The notes below the pieces were generated by a model, which saw only the letters and a program-made list of their open reading frames with translations, did not search any database and had not been told where the DNA came from. From positions 12,992,540 to 13,056,539 of the forward strand of contig CM055107.1 in NCBI GenBank assembly GCA_029204225.1: a stretch of 64,000 bases of DNA. Direction: 5' to 3'. Position numbers and translations under genes: made by a program. Source of the DNA: Diphasiastrum complanatum. Its lineage: Eukaryota; Streptophyta; Lycopodiopsida; Lycopodiales; Lycopodiaceae. Shown here piece after piece: positions 4,180-64,000 of the stretch (the stretch's first letter is position 1; each line of letters begins with the position of its first letter).

Positions 4180-7100
4180 CTGCATTCAAATCCAAACAAA
4201 CAAAGTCAACCAAGAGGCGAACAACAACTAGGAAATTGCTCAAGCATAATCTCACTCTTGCATTGTAGGGAAACTCGTTATCAAACAGATTGTGTTACTG
4301 ATACTAAATTGTCTGTGACTCATACGTGTATAAGATGAGCAGTCTTGACTCCATGACCAATGATGTGCAATTTTACTTATGCAAAATACCAGCAAGAACT
4401 GCATAATGCATATAGAAAAAGGACGAAAGCAGCATAATTGCATTGATGTTCAACGTAACACAAAAAAGTGTAGTGAATTTGTTTTAGAGGTAATCATGCA
4501 ACAATGGGAGACGGGAAAAAGTTGTGCCAAGTAGCATCAACTTTCAATCTCGTTACTTGAAGAAACAGACGTCAAAACAGACTTCAAAAAACTAAAAGGT
4601 CAACTAGCAAGCAACATTTTTTGTCTAAGCAAACTCGACATAAAAGTCTTGAACATATTCTTTAGACTAATGGCTACCATCGATATTTAAAAAAGCTACT
4701 ATTCACTGTATTATACAAGCATAAAATTCCTTTCAACTGTCAAAAGCACATAATTGAAGAACTGAGGATGCTATACTACACAACACCAGAGTCTCATGAC
4801 CGATGCTTTAGCCACTAATCAAGCGATTACTAGAATCATGGAAGCAAGCATTGCAAAGACAACAGGGCATTGCTCAATGTATTACTTCAGCCTGTTGCTT
4901 CCTCTTTCACTCTTGAATCCACATCTCACAGACATGCAGCTTTGATTCACACAACATACACAAACTGTTAAGCTCAGGTGTCTATATATTATCAATCGGC
5001 ACTTTTCCTTCACAACCAGTTATCTACAGAACTCATGTGTAGCTAGAACTGAGGCACTAGTACCCACAAATGGTGTACTGGTACCAATATCTAACAATGC
5101 AACATAGCCAAAAGTATCTACAGAAAAGTTAGGTTATTGATACATCATAAAAATCTGTGCCACGAGATACAGGTATGTACATATGAGACACAGGCAGAGG
5201 TTCAAACGTCATTTGAGATTAACTTTTGAGTTCCAGACTCAGATTTGGAGGAAATTTTTTTTATAGCTGGTCCTCCTTTGCTCCTTATACATGCTAGTGT
5301 TCCACGCATATTATAGCAGCTTCTGACTCAATACAACGTGGCTAGTCCTTTTACACATCTCTTCAATACTATGGTTTCTTATATGGCTCTATTGAAGGGG
5401 CTGTTTTGAATCCAACCATATATAATTAGAGTCAGCTCTTTTTGCTGATAAATCTTAGCATGGTCCATAAGGTCATCTTTCACATTATGGGAAATTCTTG
5501 AGAGGTTCTTGCTGATATTGTCACCTGACGTCCACGGTCCCTGTGAACAGCTTGGGATCTCTTTGCACCACTAGATCCATTTCTTCCTGCTGCAATGACA
5601 TTCCTATTATGTAATATGTACGACTAGCTTGAGGTGCATTTCTACATGTTGGACTCTCTATTGTTGGTATTTTACCATTCCCCTGACACATTACCCAACG
5701 GGGTTGGCTCAGTTGGTTGGCTTGGCATCCAAAGTTTCTTTGGTCCCAAGTTCGAGCCTCCCCTTGGAAACCAAGAAGCATTCCCCTGACACACTTGGGC
5801 TACGAGGTGGCTTGGTGTATATGTAAGCTATCTGCTGCTACCTTTCATGGTACTCTTGTCCATCTGACTAGCATGGTATTCATATGCAACAGAGTTCGAT
5901 TGGTGCTCTCTAACAGACTCCTTTTACTATATGGTAACAGCCTACAGGGTTCTTATAGCACATTGGCAGAGTTCTACTCTTAAGTATTTGGCAGCAACAT
6001 TCTTATTTCATGCTTTAGGCAATAGGTACATGATGTTGCTTCCCTTTGCTATTCCTGGTCCAAAGAAATACCACAGACAACAGCGGTGTGTCTAGTTAGA
6101 CGCTGCACAGTTTCTTTTCTCTTCCGTCGTTATCTCGTTATCTTCAGCTTTCTTTTTGTAGTAACATGTTTTGGACTTTCTATACCCATGACATTGATCT
6201 TGATGTTTTTATTTGGCATTTTCGGTCCAGCTGGTTGGCATCGTATGAAAGCATGTAACTAAAGGGTTCTAATTTGGTATAACCATATACAAAGTACGAA
6301 TAAGTTAAGCTTTTCTCTTGAAATTACTAGGTGTTAATACTTGCCTGCAGTTGAAGACTAGTCTATTCTATTATACAAGAATGGTAGAAAGAAACATGAG
6401 TTGTGAAGAGATCGGATAGCATAGTGCTCACGTGATGTAGCCATTGTTATCAATGTCTGCAGCAACAAGATCTCCAACAGTCATCTGACGATGCAGCACC
6501 CACTTGGCAATGAGTCGGTTTCGGCGATCAATGCGAGCTTCTGCAAAAAAAAGAAATGCACGAGCTACCGCAAGGGTGCTGACCAGTAGCCATATAGCAG
6601 CAAATAGCCGACCTTCCATACTCTGGAACGTGTGATCACCATACCCAACTGTGGTGACAGACATGCAAGCTAAATAGAAAGAATCCAACCAGCTCAGTTG
6701 CTCCAACCTGTGCATCACAGCAGTCCCAACCCCCAAACACCCAATTACCACAAGCATTGCCAAGGCTACCTTCATTCTGATCCGCATTCGTCCTTTCTTC
6801 GTATTCACAAGATAATTCATTGCTGTCTCATGGTGGCTACCCTCAACTGCACTCAACAATAGGGTTTCCTGCCTTTCCAGAACAAAAGCCACCATTCCAC
6901 TCAAAAGAATGTCTATGAATCCGAATCCTACTAACACAAATGCACAGGCGAATAGCTTGGCCGTTGCCGAAAGAGGAGCAATATCACCATAACCTATTGT
7001 ACAGAGGGTTACAACACAAAAGTAGAGGGCATCTACTATAGGATGAGTCGTAGATCCTGAAAAATCCTTTCTGTTCCATATGTAGATCAGAACCCCCACA

Positions 7101-7762
7101 AACATATAGATTACAAGCCCTATGCTTGCCTGAAACACAATAGATGAAACCTTCTTCAATTGTGGCTTCTGACATTTGTCCTTGGTTTCAAACGCCACCG
7201 ACAGTGCAGGCGCTGTCATCGATTTTCGCAAAAACTTCTTGACTGGGTGATGGGCTGCTTCAAACTTCTTGACTGGGCGATAGGCTGCTTCTTCATCATC
7301 TTGCGAGCAAACAAGAGGCAAAACCAAAGATTTTTGGCTATCACCCCTATTAGACTCACCTAATTTCTGATCAATATCTTCATTTTCTTCTTTTGATCGT
7401 GTTTCCGAGAAATCCTTGTCCCTGACCTCTTTGAAAGCGCTTTTGAATTCCCGCGGCGACCTGCCATTGCTGCTCGTCCTCTTAACGCTTCTTTGAGCTG
7501 CCGGCGAAAAGAAAGCGGCATCATAATTCCCATCGTCGTCGTCACCATCGGGGCTCCTTGGATCGAACAAGAAGTGGAGGCTGCTTGTTGGGCTCTCTAG
7601 CGATCCATACACAAGCCTTTCCTTCAGAGACCCGTCTTCAATGCGAATTGGAAGAGTCTTGCTCACCACAGGGGATCCTTCCGGGATGTTAAAGAGCCTG
7701 GGATCTAACGCAAGGGGGATCTTTGGCCTTGAACTGGGTCGCCCTAAAAGGGGCTCTTCCAT
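4038..7762 (-). CDS. TPK: two-pore potassium channel, TPK/KCO family, two exons
   Basis: Spliced model: exon 1 at 7762-6432, exon 2 at 4179-4038, 490 aa. Plant TPK channels are tonoplast K+ channels activated by cytosolic Ca2+ and 14-3-3 proteins; each subunit has two pore domains and dimerises. Visible here: a long acidic/basic N-terminus (1-200); a mode-I-like 14-3-3 site K-S-M-T-A-P at 180-185; TM1 about 207-229; pore 1 with TIGYGD at 255-260; TM2 about 268-292; TM3 about 330-350; pore 2 with TVGYGD at 371-376; TM4 about 386-407; EF-hand 1 loop 436-447 (D, D, N, Y, T, E all present); EF-hand 2 loop 475-486. The last loop position is Cys486 instead of Glu or Asp, so the second site is probably weak. 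The N-terminus is much longer than I recall for angiosperm TPK1. The two exons join within EF-hand 1 (ATC AC|C AAA) and give a continuous EF-hand pair. Tonoplast location is inferred from the family. Confidence 0.93.
4180..6431 (-). other. TPK intron (2252 bp)
   Basis: GT at 6431-6430 and AG at 4181-4180 on the minus strand. It splits EF-hand 1. The only recognisable content is a mini-SINE at 5691-5778 in the orientation opposite to the gene. Short open frames inside have no domain support. Confidence 0.85.
5691..5778 (+). mobile_element. tRNA-derived mini-SINE, copy 1 (in the TPK intron)
   Basis: This 88-bp body carries a pol III A-box-like TGGCTCAGTTGG and a B-box-like AGTTCGAGCC, and ends in a small stem-loop CTTGG-AAA-CCAAG followed by AAG. 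It is flanked by a perfect 15-bp target duplication, CATTCCCCTGACACA, at 5676-5690 and 5779-5793. Three relatives lie at 32317, 55205 (minus) and 55349. There is no poly(A) tail or LINE-like tail. Confidence 0.85.
6432..7762 (-). CDS. TPK: TPK exon 1 (N-terminus, both pores, first half of EF-hand 1)
   Basis: ATG at 7762-7760, open for 443 codons plus two bases. The unspliced frame would stop right after Thr444, in the middle of an EF-hand loop. The donor AC|GTGAGC at 6432/6431 removes that stop. The exon contains a 30-bp tandem duplication (about 7227-7287) that repeats the motif P-V-K-K-F at residues 163-167 and 173-177. Confidence 0.92.
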
Positions 7763-8300
7763 TTTACACTCACTCTCTCTATCTTCTGCACTACCTCATG
7801 AATCATCATCCCCTTCCATGAGACACACAATTCACATGTAAGCTCAAAAACAAGAGCAAGATCAAGATGTGGGTTAGAATAACAATAAGGTGCCGCTGCT
7901 GCACTACTGCAAGATCAGTGTAGCTTCATTGTTGCTGCTCTCTCTATATATTCTGCACTACCTCATGAATCATCATTCCCTTCTTCCATGGCATAGACAA
8001 TTCACAAGTGATTCAATAGCAAGAGCAAGATGTGGGTTAGGCTAATCTTCCATGCCATAGACAATCCACAAAGTGATTCAATAGCAAGAGCAAGATGTGG
8101 GTTAGACTAATGATAAGCTGCTGTTGCTGCAAGATCTGAGTTATCTCTTATGCTGTTGCCATCTCGCTATATTTTGCAAGGATTCATCACCCTCTTCCAT
8201 GGCACCGACAATTCACATATAATTGAATAGCAATAGCAAGAGCAATAGCAAGATTTGGGTTAGATTAATGCTTATGAGGTGCTGCTGTTGCTGCAGTGAT
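7763..8300 (-). repeat. degenerate tandem repeats in the TPK leader/promoter region
   Basis: Just upstream of the TPK start codon four diverged copies of one unit occur, near 7810-7880, 7980-8042, 8048-8112 and 8193-8268. Shared pieces on the plus strand are CTTCCATG, GACAATTCACA, AGCAAGAGCAAGAT and GTGGGTTAG. Three copies are also followed by GCTGCTGTTGCTGC-like runs. Copies 1, 2 and 4 are preceded by a pyrimidine/TATA-like stretch and CTCATGAATCATCA-type sequence. The block probably contains the 5' UTR and core promoter; I cannot place the transcription start. Confidence 0.7.
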
Positions 8301-9784: not shown

Positions 9785-14305
<4,521 letters not shown>

Positions 14306-32298: not shown

Positions 32299-32316
32299 CA
32301 TTATATACTAATCACC

Positions 32317-32399
32317 CAACAGGGTTGGCTCAACTGGTTAGCTTGGCATCCAAAATTTCTTTGGTCCCAGGTTCGAGCCTCCCCTTGGAAACCAAGAAG
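32317..32399 (+). mobile_element. tRNA-derived mini-SINE, copy 2
   Basis: 83-bp body with A-box-like TGGCTCAACTGG, B-box-like GGTTCGAGCC and the 3' stem-loop CTTGG-AAA-CCAAG. It is flanked by a perfect 18-bp target duplication, CATTATATACTAATCACC, at 32299-32316 and 32400-32417. It is the cleanest copy and lies about 0.5 kb upstream of MMS21. Confidence 0.92.
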
Positions 32400-32417
32400 C
32401 ATTATATACTAATCACC

Positions 32418-37659: not shown

Positions 37660-40600
37660 CTCTCTCTTCAACATTGGATGCTAGTTTCAACATAGTCTTT
37701 GAGCACATTCCAAGATTAGATCTATGCATTAAATATAGGTCCTTTCCCAATGGTTTGGTGAAGATATCAGCCACACACTCCTTTGAAGAGACATGTTGAA
37801 GCTCCACCTCTTTGGCAATGACTTGATCTCTCACAAAATGGTGAGCAATCTCAATGTGCTTGCTCCTTGCATGAAAAACAGGATTGCTTGCCAAGCTTTG
37901 GGCTGAAAGGTTATCACAAAGTATGATTGGAGTCTTCTCTGGTTCCAGCAAGTGAAGATCCAATAACATCCTCTTGATCCAAAGAATCTCCTTGGTGCAT
38001 GTTGTTAATGCCTTGTACTCGGCTTCGGTGGAAGATAGAGAGATAGTTGGTTGCTTCTTTTATAGCCATGAGACCACTCCATCTCCAAGATAGATTGCAA
38101 AGGCACTTGTTGACTTCCTATCCATTTGATCACCTACAAAATCTGAATCTGAAAATCCACAAAGGTTAGGTGTAGTACCTCCATACAAGATGCCAAAATC
38201 TCTAGATCCCGAGATGTATCTAAGTACTCTCTTTCCTAGCTTCCAATGAGCCTCACTAGGATCTTGCATAAATTGACTTAGTTTACCAACCACAAAGCTT
38301 AGATCAGGTCTTGTGATGGTTAACCATATAAGAGATCCTATTAGCTTTCTATAGAGAGTAATGTCCTTGAAGGATCTTTCATTACTTCTTGTAGTTAGCT
38401 TTACATTTGATTCCATAGGAGTAGAAACAACTTTACAATCTTCCATATGAAACCTTTTTAGAATAGAGTTAACATACTTTTCTTGACATATGAATGTAGA
38501 TTTAGAAGTTCTAATAATCTCTATTCCTAAGATATAATGAAGTTTACCAAGATCTTGAATTTCAAACTCTCTTTTGAGTGCCATCTTGATTTCATCTATA
38601 TCTAGATTGTTACCACCACTTAAGATAATGTCATCAACATAGATCAAAAGTAAAGTGATATCATTTTCATTCAATCTAAAGTAGAGAGAATGATCATACT
38701 CACTCATAACAAAGTTTTGAGAAAGTAAGAAGGAATTGAGCTTAGCATACCAACTCCTTGGTGCTTGCTTTAGCCCATACAAACTCTTTTGGAGATAGCA
38801 CACATGATTAGGCTCATCATGTGAAACATAGCCCTCGGGTTGCTCCATGTAAATATCTTCTTCAAGATCACCATTCAAGAAGGCATTAGTAACATCCATC
38901 TGCCACATATCCCAATCATAAAGAGTTGCAAGAGAGATTAGGATTCGAATAGTTACCATCTTTGCCACGGGTGCAAAGGTCTCATCATAGTCAATACCAT
39001 ATTCTTGAGCATACCCCTTTGCCACCAACCTTGCCTTGTACTTGTTGATTGATCCATCTTGATTTGTCTTGATCTTGAAGATCCACTTACAACCAATTGC
39101 CTTCTTGTCCTTTGGAAGCTTTACCAACCTCCATGTGTTGCTTTTGATGAGTGCTTGATGCTCATGATCCATGGCTTGGATCCATTCCTTCTTTTGAATT
39201 GCTTCACCTACACAAGTTGGTTCATCAAAAGAGGTAAGAAAAGCAAAGTTAGAGTTGTCCACCACTTGCTTTCCTTTTTCATCATAGGTTAGCCTTGATG
39301 GCTTAGCCCTTTGCCTTTGAGTCTTCCTTGAAGTTTGCTTTGGAGTGGCATCTCCATCTTCATCCAAGACATCTTGCACATCATGATGATTAGTAGGCAC
39401 ATCAACATCAACATCAACAACATTGGAAACATTCTCTTCATGAAAGATGACATCCCTACTTATGACAACTTTCTTTGTAGAAGGAATGTACACTTTGTAA
39501 GCCTTGCTTACTTCACTATAGCCAACAAACACACCCTTCTTTGATGAAGGATCTTCTTTAGTTCTATCATCAAGTGTGATATTGACAAAACATGTACATC
39601 CAAAGATCCTACAATGCTTGACACTCGGCCTTCTACCATAAAGAACCTCATGAGGAGTTTTACCATCCAAGGAAGCACTTGTCCATCTATTACATAGATA
39701 GTTAGCACATGCTAAAGCTTCCCCCCAAAAAGACTTAGCAAGATTAGCATGTAGTCTCATTGCCTTGGCACATTCACAAAGGGTTCTATTCTTCCTCTCG
39801 GCCACTCCATTCTGTTGTGGAGTCCTAGGACTAGACATCTCCCTCTTAATCCCATGTGCTATACAAAAGTCTTTGAACCTATTTGAGGTGTATTCCCCTC
39901 CATTATCAGATCTTAAGCATTTGATCTTTGTATTGAATTGGTTTTCCATTTCATTCTTGAACTTGACAAATGCAGCAAACACTTCATCCTTACTTTTAAG
40001 AAGATAGATCCAAGTATACCTACTAAAGTCATCAATGAAAGTTGCATACATCTTTGCCCCACCATTGCTAGTTGTACTAGAAGAATGAATATCAGAATGC
40101 ACAAGTTGAAAAGCTTCTTTAGATCTAGAAGTAGATCTAGAATAAGCAAGTCTATGAGATTTGGACAAGGCACAATGTTCACAAACACTATTGTTTGCAA
40201 CAAGACTTTTAGGGAGACCAAGAACAAGCTCTTTCTTTGCCATTACCTCCAAAGATTTGAAGTTGGGATGGCCCAACCTCTTGTGCCAAACTTCTTGGTT
40301 TGTCAATTGCTCCCTAGCCATACATCCTTCATGATTAGAGATCACACATGCATCAAGCTTGAAAAGTTTACCATGCCTCCTACCTTGAGCAATCAAGGAT
40401 CCACATTTACTTATCAAACATGCATCTCCAATGAACTCCACATCAAGTCCTTTGTCAATCATTTGACTTACACTAAGCAAATTCTTAGTGATTGAAGGAA
40501 TGTACAAAACATTTTCAAGATTTGCTTTCCTATTTGTTGAAAGGGAAATAGGAATAGTGCCTATGCCTTTGATGTCACATTGACCATCATTTGCAGTGTA

Positions 40601-41596
40601 GATGATGTTACCTTCTCCCTCATAAGACAATAAGGATGTAAAGTATTCCTTATGTCTTGTCATGTGAGATGAGGCTCCACTATCAATCCACCAAGGATCA
40701 TTATCATCTATGTTGGCTAACAAACTTGAAGTCATAACAAGTGATTCACATGTGTTATGTTCTTCCTCATCTATTGTAAGATTTCCTTGTCTCTCTCCTT
40801 GCTCTCTTTTCTTCTTATAACATTCATTTGCAAAATGACCTTTTATCCCACAATAAAAGCACTTGAACTTTGACTTATTGTTCTTAGTAGAAGAGGAAGA
40901 GGAAGAGTGATCATCATGATCAAAGTTACCACCTTTGGACCATTTCCCTTTGCCCTTGAATTTGCCTTTTGTGAAGAAAGCCTCTTCACCTCCACCTTGC
41001 AAGGATGCACCATCAAGCTTTGATTGCAACCTATGTTCTTCAGCCAATAAGATTTCTTGCAAGTCAACCACACTTGGCAAGACTCTTTGAATGGCAAAAC
41101 TTTGCACAAGGTTAGCATGTTCATTTAGCAAACCATTCAACATAACTTGGACTATTTCACCATCTTTTATGTTCTCATCAATGCATGCTAAATCATCACT
41201 TAGGGACTTAACTCTCAAGATAAATGCATGAGCACTTTCACCCTCTCTTTGCCTACTAGAAAATATTTGTCTCCTTAGGGTCAATACCCTAGATGTGGAC
41301 TTTGATTCAAAGAGCTTCTTTAAGGCATTCCATGCCTCACTTGCACTTTGACACTTTCCAACTTCCTTGAGAAGTTCATTTGTAACATTCATTTTAATGA
41401 TATGAAGAGCCCTTTTGGCCTTCTTATCAAACCTTTGTTGCTCTTGAAGTGTGAGAGGTCTCTCTTCAATTTCTGCAACTATGTCCATGAGTTCATTCAA
41501 CTCAAGTAAGGACTCCATCCTCACTTTCCAAGTAGAGTAGTTTGATGAACTCAACCTTTCACTAGACTCTAGCATGATCCCACCATTGGAAGCCAT
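37655..41596 (-). pseudogene. gag-pol: element B gag-pol polyprotein, one premature stop
   Basis: 1313 codons in one frame, interrupted by TAA at 38062-38060 (codon 1179, in RNase H, within V-S-W-L-x-K-K-Q where Ser is usual). Gag 1-290 with zinc knuckle C246-C249-H254-C259. Protease D-S-G-A at 305-308. GAG-pre-integrase His438, His443, Cys472, Cys475. Integrase D502, D564, E600. RT with Q-M-D-V near 899-902 and Y-V-D-D at 986-989. RNase H from about 1145. Downstream of the stop the frame continues through A-E-Y-K-A-L and A-D-I-F-T-K-P-L and ends at TGA inside the 3' LTR. The truncated product (1178 aa) keeps protease, integrase and RT but lacks most of RNase H. The stop could be a recent mutation or an assembly error. 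Confidence 0.95.
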
Positions 41597-42757
41597 GATT
41601 CTAATGTTTCTTCAACTTTTAGGTTCTGTCCTAAAGCACTTAGCACTCACTTTTCTCTCAACAAATGATAGATAAAGAGATCTATGAAGATTTAGGACCC
41701 TAAAACACTTCTATCTTGAACCTAGATGGTTTCCAAGCATAGAAAGGAAGATTGAAACACATGCAACACTTTGCACACACTAAGAATGGATTACAAAATC
41801 AAACCAACCTGAACACACTCTTGCTTAAGCTCTCAAACTTTCCAGCAAGTGACCAAATCAAGTTATGGTGTGAAGAGTTACTTGCATTCTTAGAAAATAC
41901 CCAAAACTAGGATGCCAAGATTACCTAGTAATGAACAAACTTGATCAACATATGATCAACACACTAAGATATTGATTCAACCTGTAAAACCACATGTAAA
42001 CCACACTTCTAAAAGTTTATAAACTCCAGCAAGTGATAAATACAAGATTTAGAGGTGAATGAATGAGCACACTTAGTGAATCACAAGACTAGCTTCACTA
42101 TCTTGTCAAATCTTGGTGTTTAGATGTAGATCTAAGATCACTTCGCATGAGAATGTTCCTCAACCTGTTAAGAACCTGAAAACACACTTGCATAATGGTT
42201 AACACCTTCCAGCAAATGCTCCAATCAAATTACATAAGGAGAGTTACTTACATGCTCAACAAAGTACACCAAAAATTATGTCAAAATTGATGACAATCTT
42301 TACAATATGCTCTTCACAATGGAGCTTACAATATGTTCACCCAAAAAAGGGGATCTTTCATCCAAATGGGAGCTTTGCTCAGCCTTTAGGAGAATTACAA
42401 CTCACTCAAAAAGAGCATTTGTCATCCACTTAAGGAGAAGTTTCATCCACTTAAGGAGAGTGTTCATCCAAGAATGGAGATTGTCAACAATAGGATTGAA
42501 AAGAACATTGTTAGTATTGAATATGCACAAGCCTCACAATCACAAATGATTAGGTGTTATGATCTGATCCAAAATAGTTTCTTTTCAGCCTCTGATCTTC
42601 AATAGACCTGAAATATGCTTTTGATCCACAAGTTCAACTCACAAAACAAAGGTTAGTAAGATTTGATCAACAAAGCAATGCAAAATCATGCTAGAACTTG
42701 ATCAAACATCCAAATATCACCAAAAATGGAATACTTACTGTAAATAGAAGCCAACCA
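41597..42757 (-). other. element B untranslated leader
   Basis: Between primer site and ATG. It contains diverged internal repeats around TTCCAGCAA(G/A)TG and GAGTTACTT(G/A)CAT. No coding motif. Confidence 0.7.
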
Positions 42758-54606: not shown

Positions 54607-55204
54607 GCATCCCTCTCAATTATGTGTGTGCATGTGTCTTTTCATTCACATGGGGGTTACTCCAATTACCATGGACAAAGGCTGATCTCCTCTGACGTGA
54701 CTCCAATACCTACCCAAATGGGACTGCACAACGTCTGAGCACTGGCAGGGTCCACCATCCATCCCAAAGCGGTGGACGAAAACAACTCGTAAAACCTTGT
54801 CTTTCATAAGGGTCTACAACCACGTGGCAATGCATGCAAATCAAAATAAAACATTGAAAGAATAAATGAATGATGGAACATGGTTTTCATATTACACTCA
54901 TAGTACTTGAAAACCAAACATCTAGTTGTGGACGAGAACTCTGGTTGCTTTTTTGGTGGATTGGAGAACTTTAATGCAATCCCTTGCTATCCAAATTAAA
55001 TGTCTATTCCAGATTGCTAAAGGATTCCTTGCTATCCAAATGTCCATTCTAGATTGCAAATATCACACTGGAATGTTATACATCATGTGATATTTGGTCT
55101 AGAATTGCAAATAGGCCTATTTTGGAAACTTTGATTGGGATGTTAGCCAAGATATTGTGATTACACATTGCTTATTATCTCAAAAGATATGGTCATGTAG
55201 AATG
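54607..55204. other. intergenic; short tandem duplication at about 54975-55070
   Basis: No gene. CCTTGCTATCCAAAT followed by GTC(T/C)ATTC(C/T)AGATTGC occurs twice (about 54981 and 55027). Confidence 0.45.
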
Positions 55205-55287
55205 CTTCTTGGTTTCCAAGGGGAGGCTCGAACTTGAGACCAAAGAGACTTTGGATGCCAAGATAACCAATTGAGCCAACACCCTTT
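55205..55287 (-). mobile_element. tRNA-derived mini-SINE, copy 3
   Basis: 83 bp on the minus strand with A-box-like TGGCTCAATTGG, B-box-like AGTTCGAGCC and the 3' stem-loop. Flanking direct repeats GGTCAT(G/A)TAGAATG (55191-55204 and 55288-55301) form a 14-bp target duplication with one mismatch; in element orientation it begins CATTCTA. Confidence 0.85.
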
Positions 55288-55348
55288 GGTCATATAGAAT
55301 GGAACTATAGGACCATCAAACATCTACTTTGCCATTTTCTATAATTGA

Positions 55349-55433
55349 GTCAAGGGCGTTGGCTCAATTGGTTATCTTGACATCCAAAGTTTCTTTGGTC
55401 TCAAGTTCGAGTCTCTCCTTGGAAACCAAGAGG
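55349..55433 (+). mobile_element. tRNA-derived mini-SINE, copy 4
   Basis: 85 bp, same family, closest to copy 3 (shared GGTTATCTTG). Perfect 16-bp target duplication CATTTTCTATAATTGA at 55333-55348 and 55434-55449. It lies 61 bp from copy 3 in opposite orientation, so the pair can form a long imperfect hairpin. Confidence 0.92.
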
Positions 55434-55449
55434 CATTTTCTATAATTGA

Positions 55450-57300: not shown

Positions 57301-58833
57301 TCATACCTTGATCAAATGGTACTGCACCTTCTCCATGAATTCCAAGCACGCCATGTTGAAATCTTTCTTGTGCGGTAAGGAGTACTTATTTGCCCCGACA
57401 ATCCATTTCGAAGTGGTCCATGCCGTAAATTTGGATTCCCACATTCCGCCCAGCATTGCGGCACGGTAGTATAATCTGGCAAGTGACAATTGATCTTGCA
57501 CATTGCCGGACGCCATTGGTTCATTAGGATCGAATGCCAATTGAGATAAGCAATCATCCCACCGTGTGACTACAGACGCCAACATGGTCAAATCGTTTGC
57601 AAAAAGAGTAGATTGTCCAACAGTCGGATCCAGCAAATGTCTATACTCGGCCGCATAAAATTGTGAGGCTTGGTTGAAATCCACTAATATTTGCCAATTA
57701 TATAGTTGGTGGATTATGGGCCAATTCGGGGTATGGATTGTGACTTGGTCCAATGGAATCCTTAAATCTTTCCATTTATTTTGACGTGGCATTGGCAAAT
57801 AATAGAGATCTACCCGCAATTGACGAGGGCTGACAACATAACTCCTCATAGAATCCGGAGTCTTCTCAAAAACTATTGTTCTCCATGTCGACTGTTCTCC
57901 CAATGCTGGTAGCTCGTCCATTTGACGAGGGCTGACAACATAACTCCTCATAGAATCCGGAGTCTTCTAAAAAACTATTGTTCTCCATGTCGGCTGCTCT
58001 CCCAATGCTGGTAGCTCATCCAATTCCTTGCCCTCCTCTATCTCAGAGGTCTTGAATTTAATCATCCATCCACCCCTGGAGGACTCATGCAGATGTTGTT
58101 GCAGAAACGCTTCTGAAACAATGGCTTGGGCCTTGAAGTTGACAGACCTTTTTTTGTGGCTTGGTCATCTGGTATGTCTTGTATTTCTAGCCCGTCCAAA
58201 CCTATATCTAAGCCTCCCTGATCTTGGTAGTGAGGCAAGAACTGCGACATCACAGAAAATGGAATTTGGGGCCCGGCTTCCAAAACTTGAGCGATTGCCT
58301 TTTCATAATCTTTAATTATTGCCTTTGCCTTTGCCAACTCAGTTGTTGCCGTACATTTGAGTTTATTAAAAAAAAAATTGAAACCCTACCAAGGAAGTTT
58401 GGTAGGTTTCAACCTTCCTGAACATGTATTTGATCTCTTCCGGTGAGACTAGACGATCAAGCACTTGGGTCTGGAGGTAAGGGTCGTGTTCAAGGGTGGT
58501 CGCATCCAATTCACCTTGTAGGCGCTCTCATTCAAGCTCAGCCATATCCAACTGACTAGTCTGCAACAATACTCGTTGTTTGGTGTCTTGGACGACTTTG
58601 TCCACTTGGTCTTGGGCTGTTGTCAAGGAATTATGAAGAGTCGCCACATATCCTTCAAGGTGCTCAGCAGTTTGTTGTGCGTTTTTCAGGGCGGCTTCAG
58701 ACTTTGCCTCATGTTGCTTGGCAATTTTGAGCTCTCGGTTAAATTGTATTGATTTTTGGCTGATCAAGGTATTCTCTGATCCCAGTTTGGATATGCATTT
58801 TTCCATGTCTTTTTTTTCGTCTAACATGGGCAA
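57301..58833 (-). pseudogene. unrecognised coding region with coiled coil and a 34-codon tandem duplication
   Basis: Three long minus-strand frames line up as one decayed gene. 58833-58528 is a heptad-rich, Lys/Glu/Gln-rich segment (coiled coil likely). After a TGA (58530-58528) the same frame stays open through V-L-D-R-L-V-S-P-E-E-I-K-Y-M-F, until a run of ten T (58367-58376) shifts it by one. 58337-58062 continues with A-I-I-K-D-Y-E-K-A-I-A-Q. 57951-57301 is a Trp- and Tyr-rich segment (L-Y-Y-L-P-M-P, Y-N-W-Q-I-L-V-D-F, L-A-R-L-Y-Y-R-A-A-M-L-G-G-M-W). A 102-bp (34-codon) unit is duplicated in tandem at 57820-58022; one copy has a TAG. I do not recognise the family. It could be an accessory ORF of a retroelement or a captured host gene. 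Confidence 0.5.
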
Positions 58834-63384: not shown

Positions 63385-64000
63385 TCTTGCTCCGGTCGAG
63401 CTTTGACCTGATTGCTTCGATTGAGATCTGATCGAATCCCTCCAGTTGAGATTTGATCATTGCCTTTAGTTCCGGTCAAGATTTGAGCGAGCACTTCGGC
63501 TCCGGTCGAGATTTCAGCGTGCACTTCGGCTCCGGTCGAGATCTGAGTGGGCACTTCAACTCCGGTCGAGATCTCAACGAGCACTTTGGTCGAGATTCCA
63601 GCGAGCGCTCCGGTCGAGATTCCAAAGAAGCGCTTCGATCGAGATTCCATAAAAATGCTTCGGTCGAGATTCCAGAAAAACACTTCAGTCAAGATTCCAG
63701 AAAAATGCTTTGGTTGAGATTTAAGATGGGCCTCCGATTGAGAGTTTATTGAGGTCTCCGGTTGAGAGTGAGGTGAGGCCTTCGGTTGACATGGAAGTTG
63801 TGCCTCCGGTTGAGATTTCAGCTGGGCCGCCGGTTGAGAGTGAGGTGAGGCCTTTGGTTGAGATGTAACACAGGGGCTCCAGTTGAGATGTAACACAGGG
63901 CTCCGGTTGAGAGTTGGTGAGGCCTTCGGTTGAGATTTCAGCTGGGCTTCCGGTTGAGAGTGAGGTGAGGACTTCGGTTGAGATTTCAGTTGGGCCTCCA
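63385..64000 (+). repeat. minisatellite, about 24 copies of a 25-33 bp unit, running off the window
   Basis: Units of the form (G/C)(C/T)TCCGGT(C/T)GAGAT(T/C)T(C/G)A... run to the right edge. The left half (about 63390-63680) mostly has GGTCGAGAT; the right half (about 63700-64000) mostly has GGTTGAGAT or GGTTGAGAGTGAGGTGAGG. Open frames on both strands are by-products of units close to 30 bp. Confidence 0.9.

Follow-up and report, generated by a model that had tools for sequence, protein, structure and literature searches.

A short, tail-less SINE-like element with CATT at each of its four insertion sites in a 64-kb window of Diphasiastrum complanatum

The stretch of D. complanatum DNA analysed here (64,000 nucleotides, henceforth referred to as 'the window') has a GC content of 33-42% in 4-kb steps. 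An ORF at 6428-7795 on the minus strand contains two ion-channel stretches (Ion_trans_2) and is presumably of the plant two-pore potassium channel sort, perhaps its first exon. Several copia-type retrotransposon ORFs are also present, including a stop-free one of 1183 aa at 38060-41611 (minus strand) with gag, integrase and RVT_2 domains, which may be young. Judging by the ion-channel ORF and the copia-type ORFs, the window is presumably nuclear plant DNA. Simple and tandem repeats comprise a perfect TC microsatellite of 87 units (11624-11797), a 102-bp unit occurring twice with 96% matches (57820-58022) and an array of 24-30 bp units around TCCGGTCGAGAT / GGTTGAGAT (63471-63999), which reaches the window end and in which one frame is open for 224 aa. 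The subject of this report is an element of 83-88 bp, four copies of which lie in the window, copy 1 about 650 bases downstream of the ion-channel ORF. The copies and their target site duplications, named in element orientation, are:

5676-5690, plus strand: 5' target site duplication of copy 1, CATTCCCCTGACACA (direct reading and repeat list)
5691-5778, plus strand: copy 1, 88 bp, with an extra 5' TT preceding ACCCAACGGGG (direct reading, alignment and nhmmer)
5779-5793, plus strand: 3' target site duplication of copy 1, 15/15 identical to the 5' one
32299-32316, plus strand: 5' target site duplication of copy 2, CATTATATACTAATCACC (direct reading and repeat list)
32317-32399, plus strand: copy 2 (direct reading, alignment and nhmmer)
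32400-32417, plus strand: 3' target site duplication of copy 2, 18/18 identical to the 5' one
55190-55204, minus strand: 3' target site duplication of copy 3, CATTCTACATGACCA
55205-55287, minus strand: copy 3 (direct reading, alignment and nhmmer)
55287-55301, minus strand: 5' target site duplication of copy 3, CATTCTATATGACCA, 14/15, with one mismatch against the 3' one
55333-55348, plus strand: 5' target site duplication of copy 4, CATTTTCTATAATTGA (direct reading and repeat list)
55349-55433, plus strand: copy 4 (direct reading, alignment and nhmmer)
55434-55449, plus strand: 3' target site duplication of copy 4, 16/16, its CATTTT forming a possible Pol III stop directly behind the element

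An nhmmer profile built from the four copies recovered these four and no more in the 64-kb window (E of 4e-26 or better for each, against 0.54 for the next-best match), further diverged copies were not found there by nhmmer, and the 3' end CCAAGARGCATT had no additional occurrences elsewhere in the window. An earlier reading of the sequence alone (henceforth the sequence-only reading) had placed each copy inside its own direct repeat, with the four repeats differing from one another and each beginning with CATT in element orientation. We were able to confirm this arrangement in full: the repeats match at 15/15, 18/18, 14/15 and 16/16 positions, all four are different in sequence, and CATT comes first in every one. 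The duplication of copy 3 can be counted as 14 or 15 bp, since its last A is assignable either to the repeat or to the element. The cores of the four copies are 88-93% identical to each other (76 bases), whereas the duplications contain a single mismatch in 64 bases and are thus less changed than the copies are with respect to each other, which suggests that the insertions are fairly recent and came from several source copies. The two subfamilies proposed by the sequence-only reading are visible as differences (GGTTGG/GGTTAG in copies 1 and 2 and GGTTAT in copies 3 and 4, together with a shared C-to-T change, CCCA/CTCA), but they cannot be proved from four copies. Copies 3 and 4 (55190-55449) are arranged head to head, 61 bp apart, and form an inverted pair from which a long hairpin RNA might arise; matches of this pair to Rfam microRNA precursors were far below the cut-offs (MIR169_8, 29.4 bits against 107).

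To CATT, which has a frequency of 0.0070 over both strands of the window, we attach weight on the following grounds. By chance, any one 4-mer would be common to four sites with a probability of 2.6e-7. A scan blind to the element, in which exact direct repeats on both strands were collected if they started with CATT, measured 13 bp or more and were spaced 50-8000 bp apart, returned three pairs, all of them target duplications of these copies, and no other such CATT-starting duplication in the window; the pair of copy 3 is absent from it because of its one mismatch. Under the same criteria, the average over 20 second-order Markov sequences was 0.25 pairs, with 0 or 1 in each. When exact repeat pairs were listed irrespective of their first bases (at least 13 bp, 60-500 bp apart), 46 were obtained, which include the duplications of copies 1, 2 and 4, the other 43 having different starts and many of them lying within tandem arrays. 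The base preceding CATT is C, T, C and C in the 5' flanks of copies 1-4 and G at all four element ends, and the overlap between flank and element end is exactly CATT each time; the base after it is C, A and C in copies 1-3. A T is found at position -3 of all four sites, which is uninformative with n=4. The CATT target mark is real in these four copies from one window.

The position of CATT also bears on where the transcripts would end. The run TTTT is absent inside all four copies and first appears downstream at 144, 26, 20 and 3 bases for copies 1-4, respectively, so that in copy 4 it begins at the third flank base. If RNA polymerase III stops at TTTT, transcripts of copies 1-3 would thus read through CATT into the flank. 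In the alignment of the four copies, however, flank beyond CATT has never been carried over from one copy to another. Taken together, the expected read-through and the lack of foreign flank beyond CATT make the start of reverse transcription look fixed at CATT.

In the letters of copy 1, the element opens with ACCCAACGGGG. It then presents an A box (TGGCTCA(G/A)(T/C)TGG across the four copies), a middle hairpin (CCAAAG-TTT-CTTTGG in copy 1), a B box (GTTCGAG(C/T)C across the four copies), an acceptor-like half (CCCCTTGG in copy 1, CTCCTTGG in copy 4) and an 11-base 3' extension, AAACCAAGA(A/G)G, immediately followed by CATT. The boxes were identified with the motifs TRGYNNARNNGG (A box) and GWTCRANNC (B box) and are located, with the extension of copy 1, at:

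5705-5716, plus strand: A box of copy 1, TGGCTCAGTTGG, fitting TRGYNNARNNGG
5750-5758, plus strand: B box of copy 1, GTTCGAGCC, fitting GWTCRANNC
5768-5778, plus strand: 3' extension of copy 1, AAACCAAGAAG, behind the acceptor-like CCCCTTGG (extension from the sequence, acceptor-like stem from the fold)
55267-55278, minus strand: A box of copy 3
55225-55233, minus strand: B box of copy 3
55360-55371, plus strand: A box of copy 4
55405-55413, plus strand: B box of copy 4

Combinations of an A box and a B box separated by 25-60 bases number four in the window, and all of them lie inside the copies, one in each; 30 Markov sequences, by comparison, had a mean of 0.17 and never more than one per sequence. 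The element ends with CCAAGAAG in three copies and with CCAAGAGG in copy 4. As the sequence-only reading had it, CCAAGA(A/G)G abuts CATT in all four. An A-rich, T-rich or LINE-repeat tail, which is common in tRNA-type SINEs and counted by some authors among their defining features, is absent; in copy 1, exactly 20 bases, none of them tail, stand behind the B box. At the other end, copies 2 and 3 share ACC between flank and element start (the start being assumed from copy 1), and this ACC at the 5' side could reflect microhomology at the second join or the loss of three bases. The earlier proposal of a SINE-like retroposon that lacks an A-rich or repeat tail and has target duplications differing from copy to copy is supported, and the element is very likely a SINE.

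The description of the element as tRNA-like holds for the promoter boxes and their spacing, which resembles that of tRNAs, but not for the cloverleaf: when copies 1, 3 and 4 were searched with the tRNA covariance model, no match was obtained up to an E of 10. A tRNA gene was considered and rejected, as ARAGORN reported none and there was no Rfam tRNA match; at the gathering threshold, no Rfam family of any kind was found in the whole window. The claim that the element consists only of a tRNA-like unit needs amending, since about 11 bases (AAACCAAGAAG in copy 1) follow the acceptor-like half. The predicted fold of copy 1 pairs CCAA-GGGG with CCCCUUGG, which indicates that an acceptor-like stem persists even though no cloverleaf is predicted. 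Shuffle z-scores for the folds of the four copies were modest (-2.3, -1.7, -1.0 and -1.0), and a folded structure is therefore not strongly supported.

The sequence-only reading further assigned a role to a constant 3' stem-loop, CTTGG-AAA-CCAAG, and this part of it fared poorly. The hairpin sequence is invariant in all four copies, for which reason no covariation is visible, and its predicted pair probability is high only in copy 2 (0.81-0.92), intermediate in copies 3 (0.33-0.60) and 4 (0.12-0.47) and near zero in copy 1 (about 0.00-0.01). The hairpin also competes with the acceptor-like stem for the same CCCCTTGG. Because of the inconsistent pair probability, the rival stem and the lack of covariation, the predicted 3' hairpin as a recognition mark is an idea that these results do not support. 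CATT itself is mostly unpaired in the predicted folds of copies 1-3; in that of copy 4 its C is mostly paired (unpaired probability 0.12) and the other three bases are open.

A partner LINE was sought among the 84 window ORFs of at least 85 aa, 70 of which were subjected to domain scans (in part at E 0.1 and in part at E 0.01). None of the 70 contained a LINE-type reverse transcriptase; a decayed LINE may lie in the other fourteen or in smaller ORFs. The reverse transcriptase and gag matches in the scanned ORFs were all copia-type, and the remaining matches were to the ion channel or were weak ones under the curated cut-offs. Exact patterns of the element had 0 matches in viral contigs, blastn against plasmids returned no match, and a degenerate A-box pattern run against genome contigs hit nine prokaryote contigs, which we took to be chance. 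The excerpts of open-access literature searched contain no description of a CATT-targeted SINE; the family may be catalogued in repeat databases.

We consider that these observations are probably best accounted for by a short Pol III-type SINE that is inserted at CATT by LINE-type target-primed reverse transcription, with AATG/CAUU pairing and with the target supplying the tail. The A and B boxes would serve as internal promoter for transcription of the element by RNA polymerase III. An endonuclease/reverse transcriptase of LINE type, none of which was seen in the ORFs scanned, would nick the lower strand where the upper strand reads CATT, leaving a primer that ends in AATG-3', and this primer could then pair with the CAUU that immediately follows the element in its transcript. 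Reverse transcription would begin at the adjoining G of ...CCAAGA(A/G)G, and a staggered second cut would give the 14-18 bp duplication. As the target must offer CATT, every new copy would have CATT behind it, and its read-through transcript would again hold CAUU at the right place, the site thereby acting as supplier of the tail; the RNA of copy 4 could end in CAUU plus some further U residues. We regard priming of this kind, in which AATG at the nick anneals to CAUU of the transcript, as plausible. We advance with more reserve, as a tentative idea, the fuller reading in which the element does not encode its priming tail but borrows it from the target afresh with every insertion, so that CATT serves as cut site, primer partner and tail of the next transcript, and in which the partner is a plant LINE with a target preference not described in the excerpts consulted. 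Against the proposal count the restriction to four sites in one window, the mostly paired C of CATT in copy 4 and the hairpin that is not consistently predicted; the tails of plant LINEs reported in the excerpted text of PMC3747384 and PMC9033089 are, moreover, A (L1) or GTT/TTG (RTE) and not CATT.

CATT-guided priming had been put forward by the sequence-only reading, and AATG/CAUU pairing fits all four sites; however, an endonuclease that cuts at CATT leaves the same scar, and pairing and endonuclease preference, which may also act together, are not separable with four copies. Accordingly, we considered whether the same SINE might owe CATT solely to the cutting preference of the partner's endonuclease, with an RNA that ends in ...AAGAAG or is held by protein and does not pair with the DNA. 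The CATT target in all four copies is as expected from such an enzyme, and the final sequence is identical under both readings. On the other hand, the CAUU in read-through transcripts then becomes a mere by-product of the site, and the 3' repeat of plant L1 and RTE elements is tied to the start of reverse transcription in the part of PMC9033089 consulted, no other such repeat being present here; we judge endonuclease preference as the sole cause to be somewhat unlikely. A different origin of the RNA end is conceivable if the element were a T-ended SINE of the Au or p-SINE sort, in which a source flanked by CATTTT, like copy 4 with its TTTT from the third flank base, gives an RNA ending in CAUU(U) at the Pol III stop that is used by a partner recognising U ends. 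According to excerpts of PMC3747384, p-SINEs and Au-like SINEs do end in poly(T) or a short T stretch and are perhaps moved by unidentified partners. But copies 1-3 show C, A and C and not T after CATT, and a U end alone does not explain why CA precedes TT in each of the four targets, which makes a T-ended origin unlikely.

A precedent for insertion without a tail, at targets complementary to the RNA's 3' end, exists in the tailless retropseudogenes of therian mammals, 3'-truncated Pol III RNAs that are internally primed by L1 and that likewise have preferred end points (excerpts of PMC5322556). The same excerpts give their consensus target as TT/WAAAAWW, against CATT at all four sites here, and describe truncated, promoter-poor forms, whereas the copies in the window share one and the same final base and retain the A box as well as the B box; insertions of this kind are a very improbable source of the element. 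Finally, segmental duplication or chance, in which the copies share CATT through co-copied flanks, might be suggested by the closeness and head-to-head arrangement of copies 3 and 4. The flanks past CATT differ in all four copies and each copy has its own duplication, so that segmental duplication is refuted by the alignment, and we give this explanation virtually no credence.

The preferred reading, a Pol III-type SINE inserted at CATT by target priming, can be compared with known systems as far as excerpts of the cited papers describe them. With plant tRNA-derived SINEs (TS, Au, p-SINE, SolS, SB and others; PMC3747384, PMC9033089, PMC8825457) the element has in common the A and B boxes, shortness, repetition and duplications of variable length, and it differs from them in its 83-88 bp, in having almost nothing behind the promoter unit, in the lack of an A, T or GTT tail and in the CATT at every target. 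Since SINE family members of 80-500 bp are named in PMC5787218, its length is at the low end of the known range and not outside it. Plant RTE-type LINEs and SINEs form a non-A-tailed plant retroposon class that also has an insertion-site mark, the Tn-TA signature, in which the duplications start with T and are preceded, some ten bases upstream, by a stretch of T (PMC13295347). In contrast, all four duplications here begin with C, and a run of four T within 12 bases upstream is seen at one of the four sites (copy 1, -6 to -3). The CATT start is equally at variance with the L1-type signature (TT/AAAA; A-rich duplication start after TT). Stringent LINE/SINE pairs, such as maize ZmSINE2/3 with L1 (PMC3747384) and zebrafish L2 (PMC4176376), share with the element a possible short 3' hairpin followed by a short sequence, but here the hairpin is not consistently predicted and shows no covariation, and no partner LINE emerged from the ORFs scanned; for p-SINE and Au-like families, the partners are possibly unidentified (PMC3747384).

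The closest parallel in principle is provided by the therian tailless retropseudogenes, which also lack a tail and have a target complementary to that part of the RNA from which the 3' end of the insertion is made. These show, in the part of PMC5322556 cited above, that the principle of tail-less insertion is not new. They are, however, truncated from many kinds of RNA, use TT/WAAAAWW and occur in mammals, whereas here a plant element has one fixed 3' end, CATT and promoter boxes, and such a plant family, fixed in its end and targeting CATT, seems to be a variant of this principle. In a minimal family with so sharp a mark of four bases, counting would provide a direct test of what sets the insertion site, the pairing of the RNA end with the nick or the endonuclease by itself. 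It also follows from its anatomy that SINE tools which expect a tail behind the B box may miss this class of element, as exemplified by the 20 tail-free bases of copy 1.
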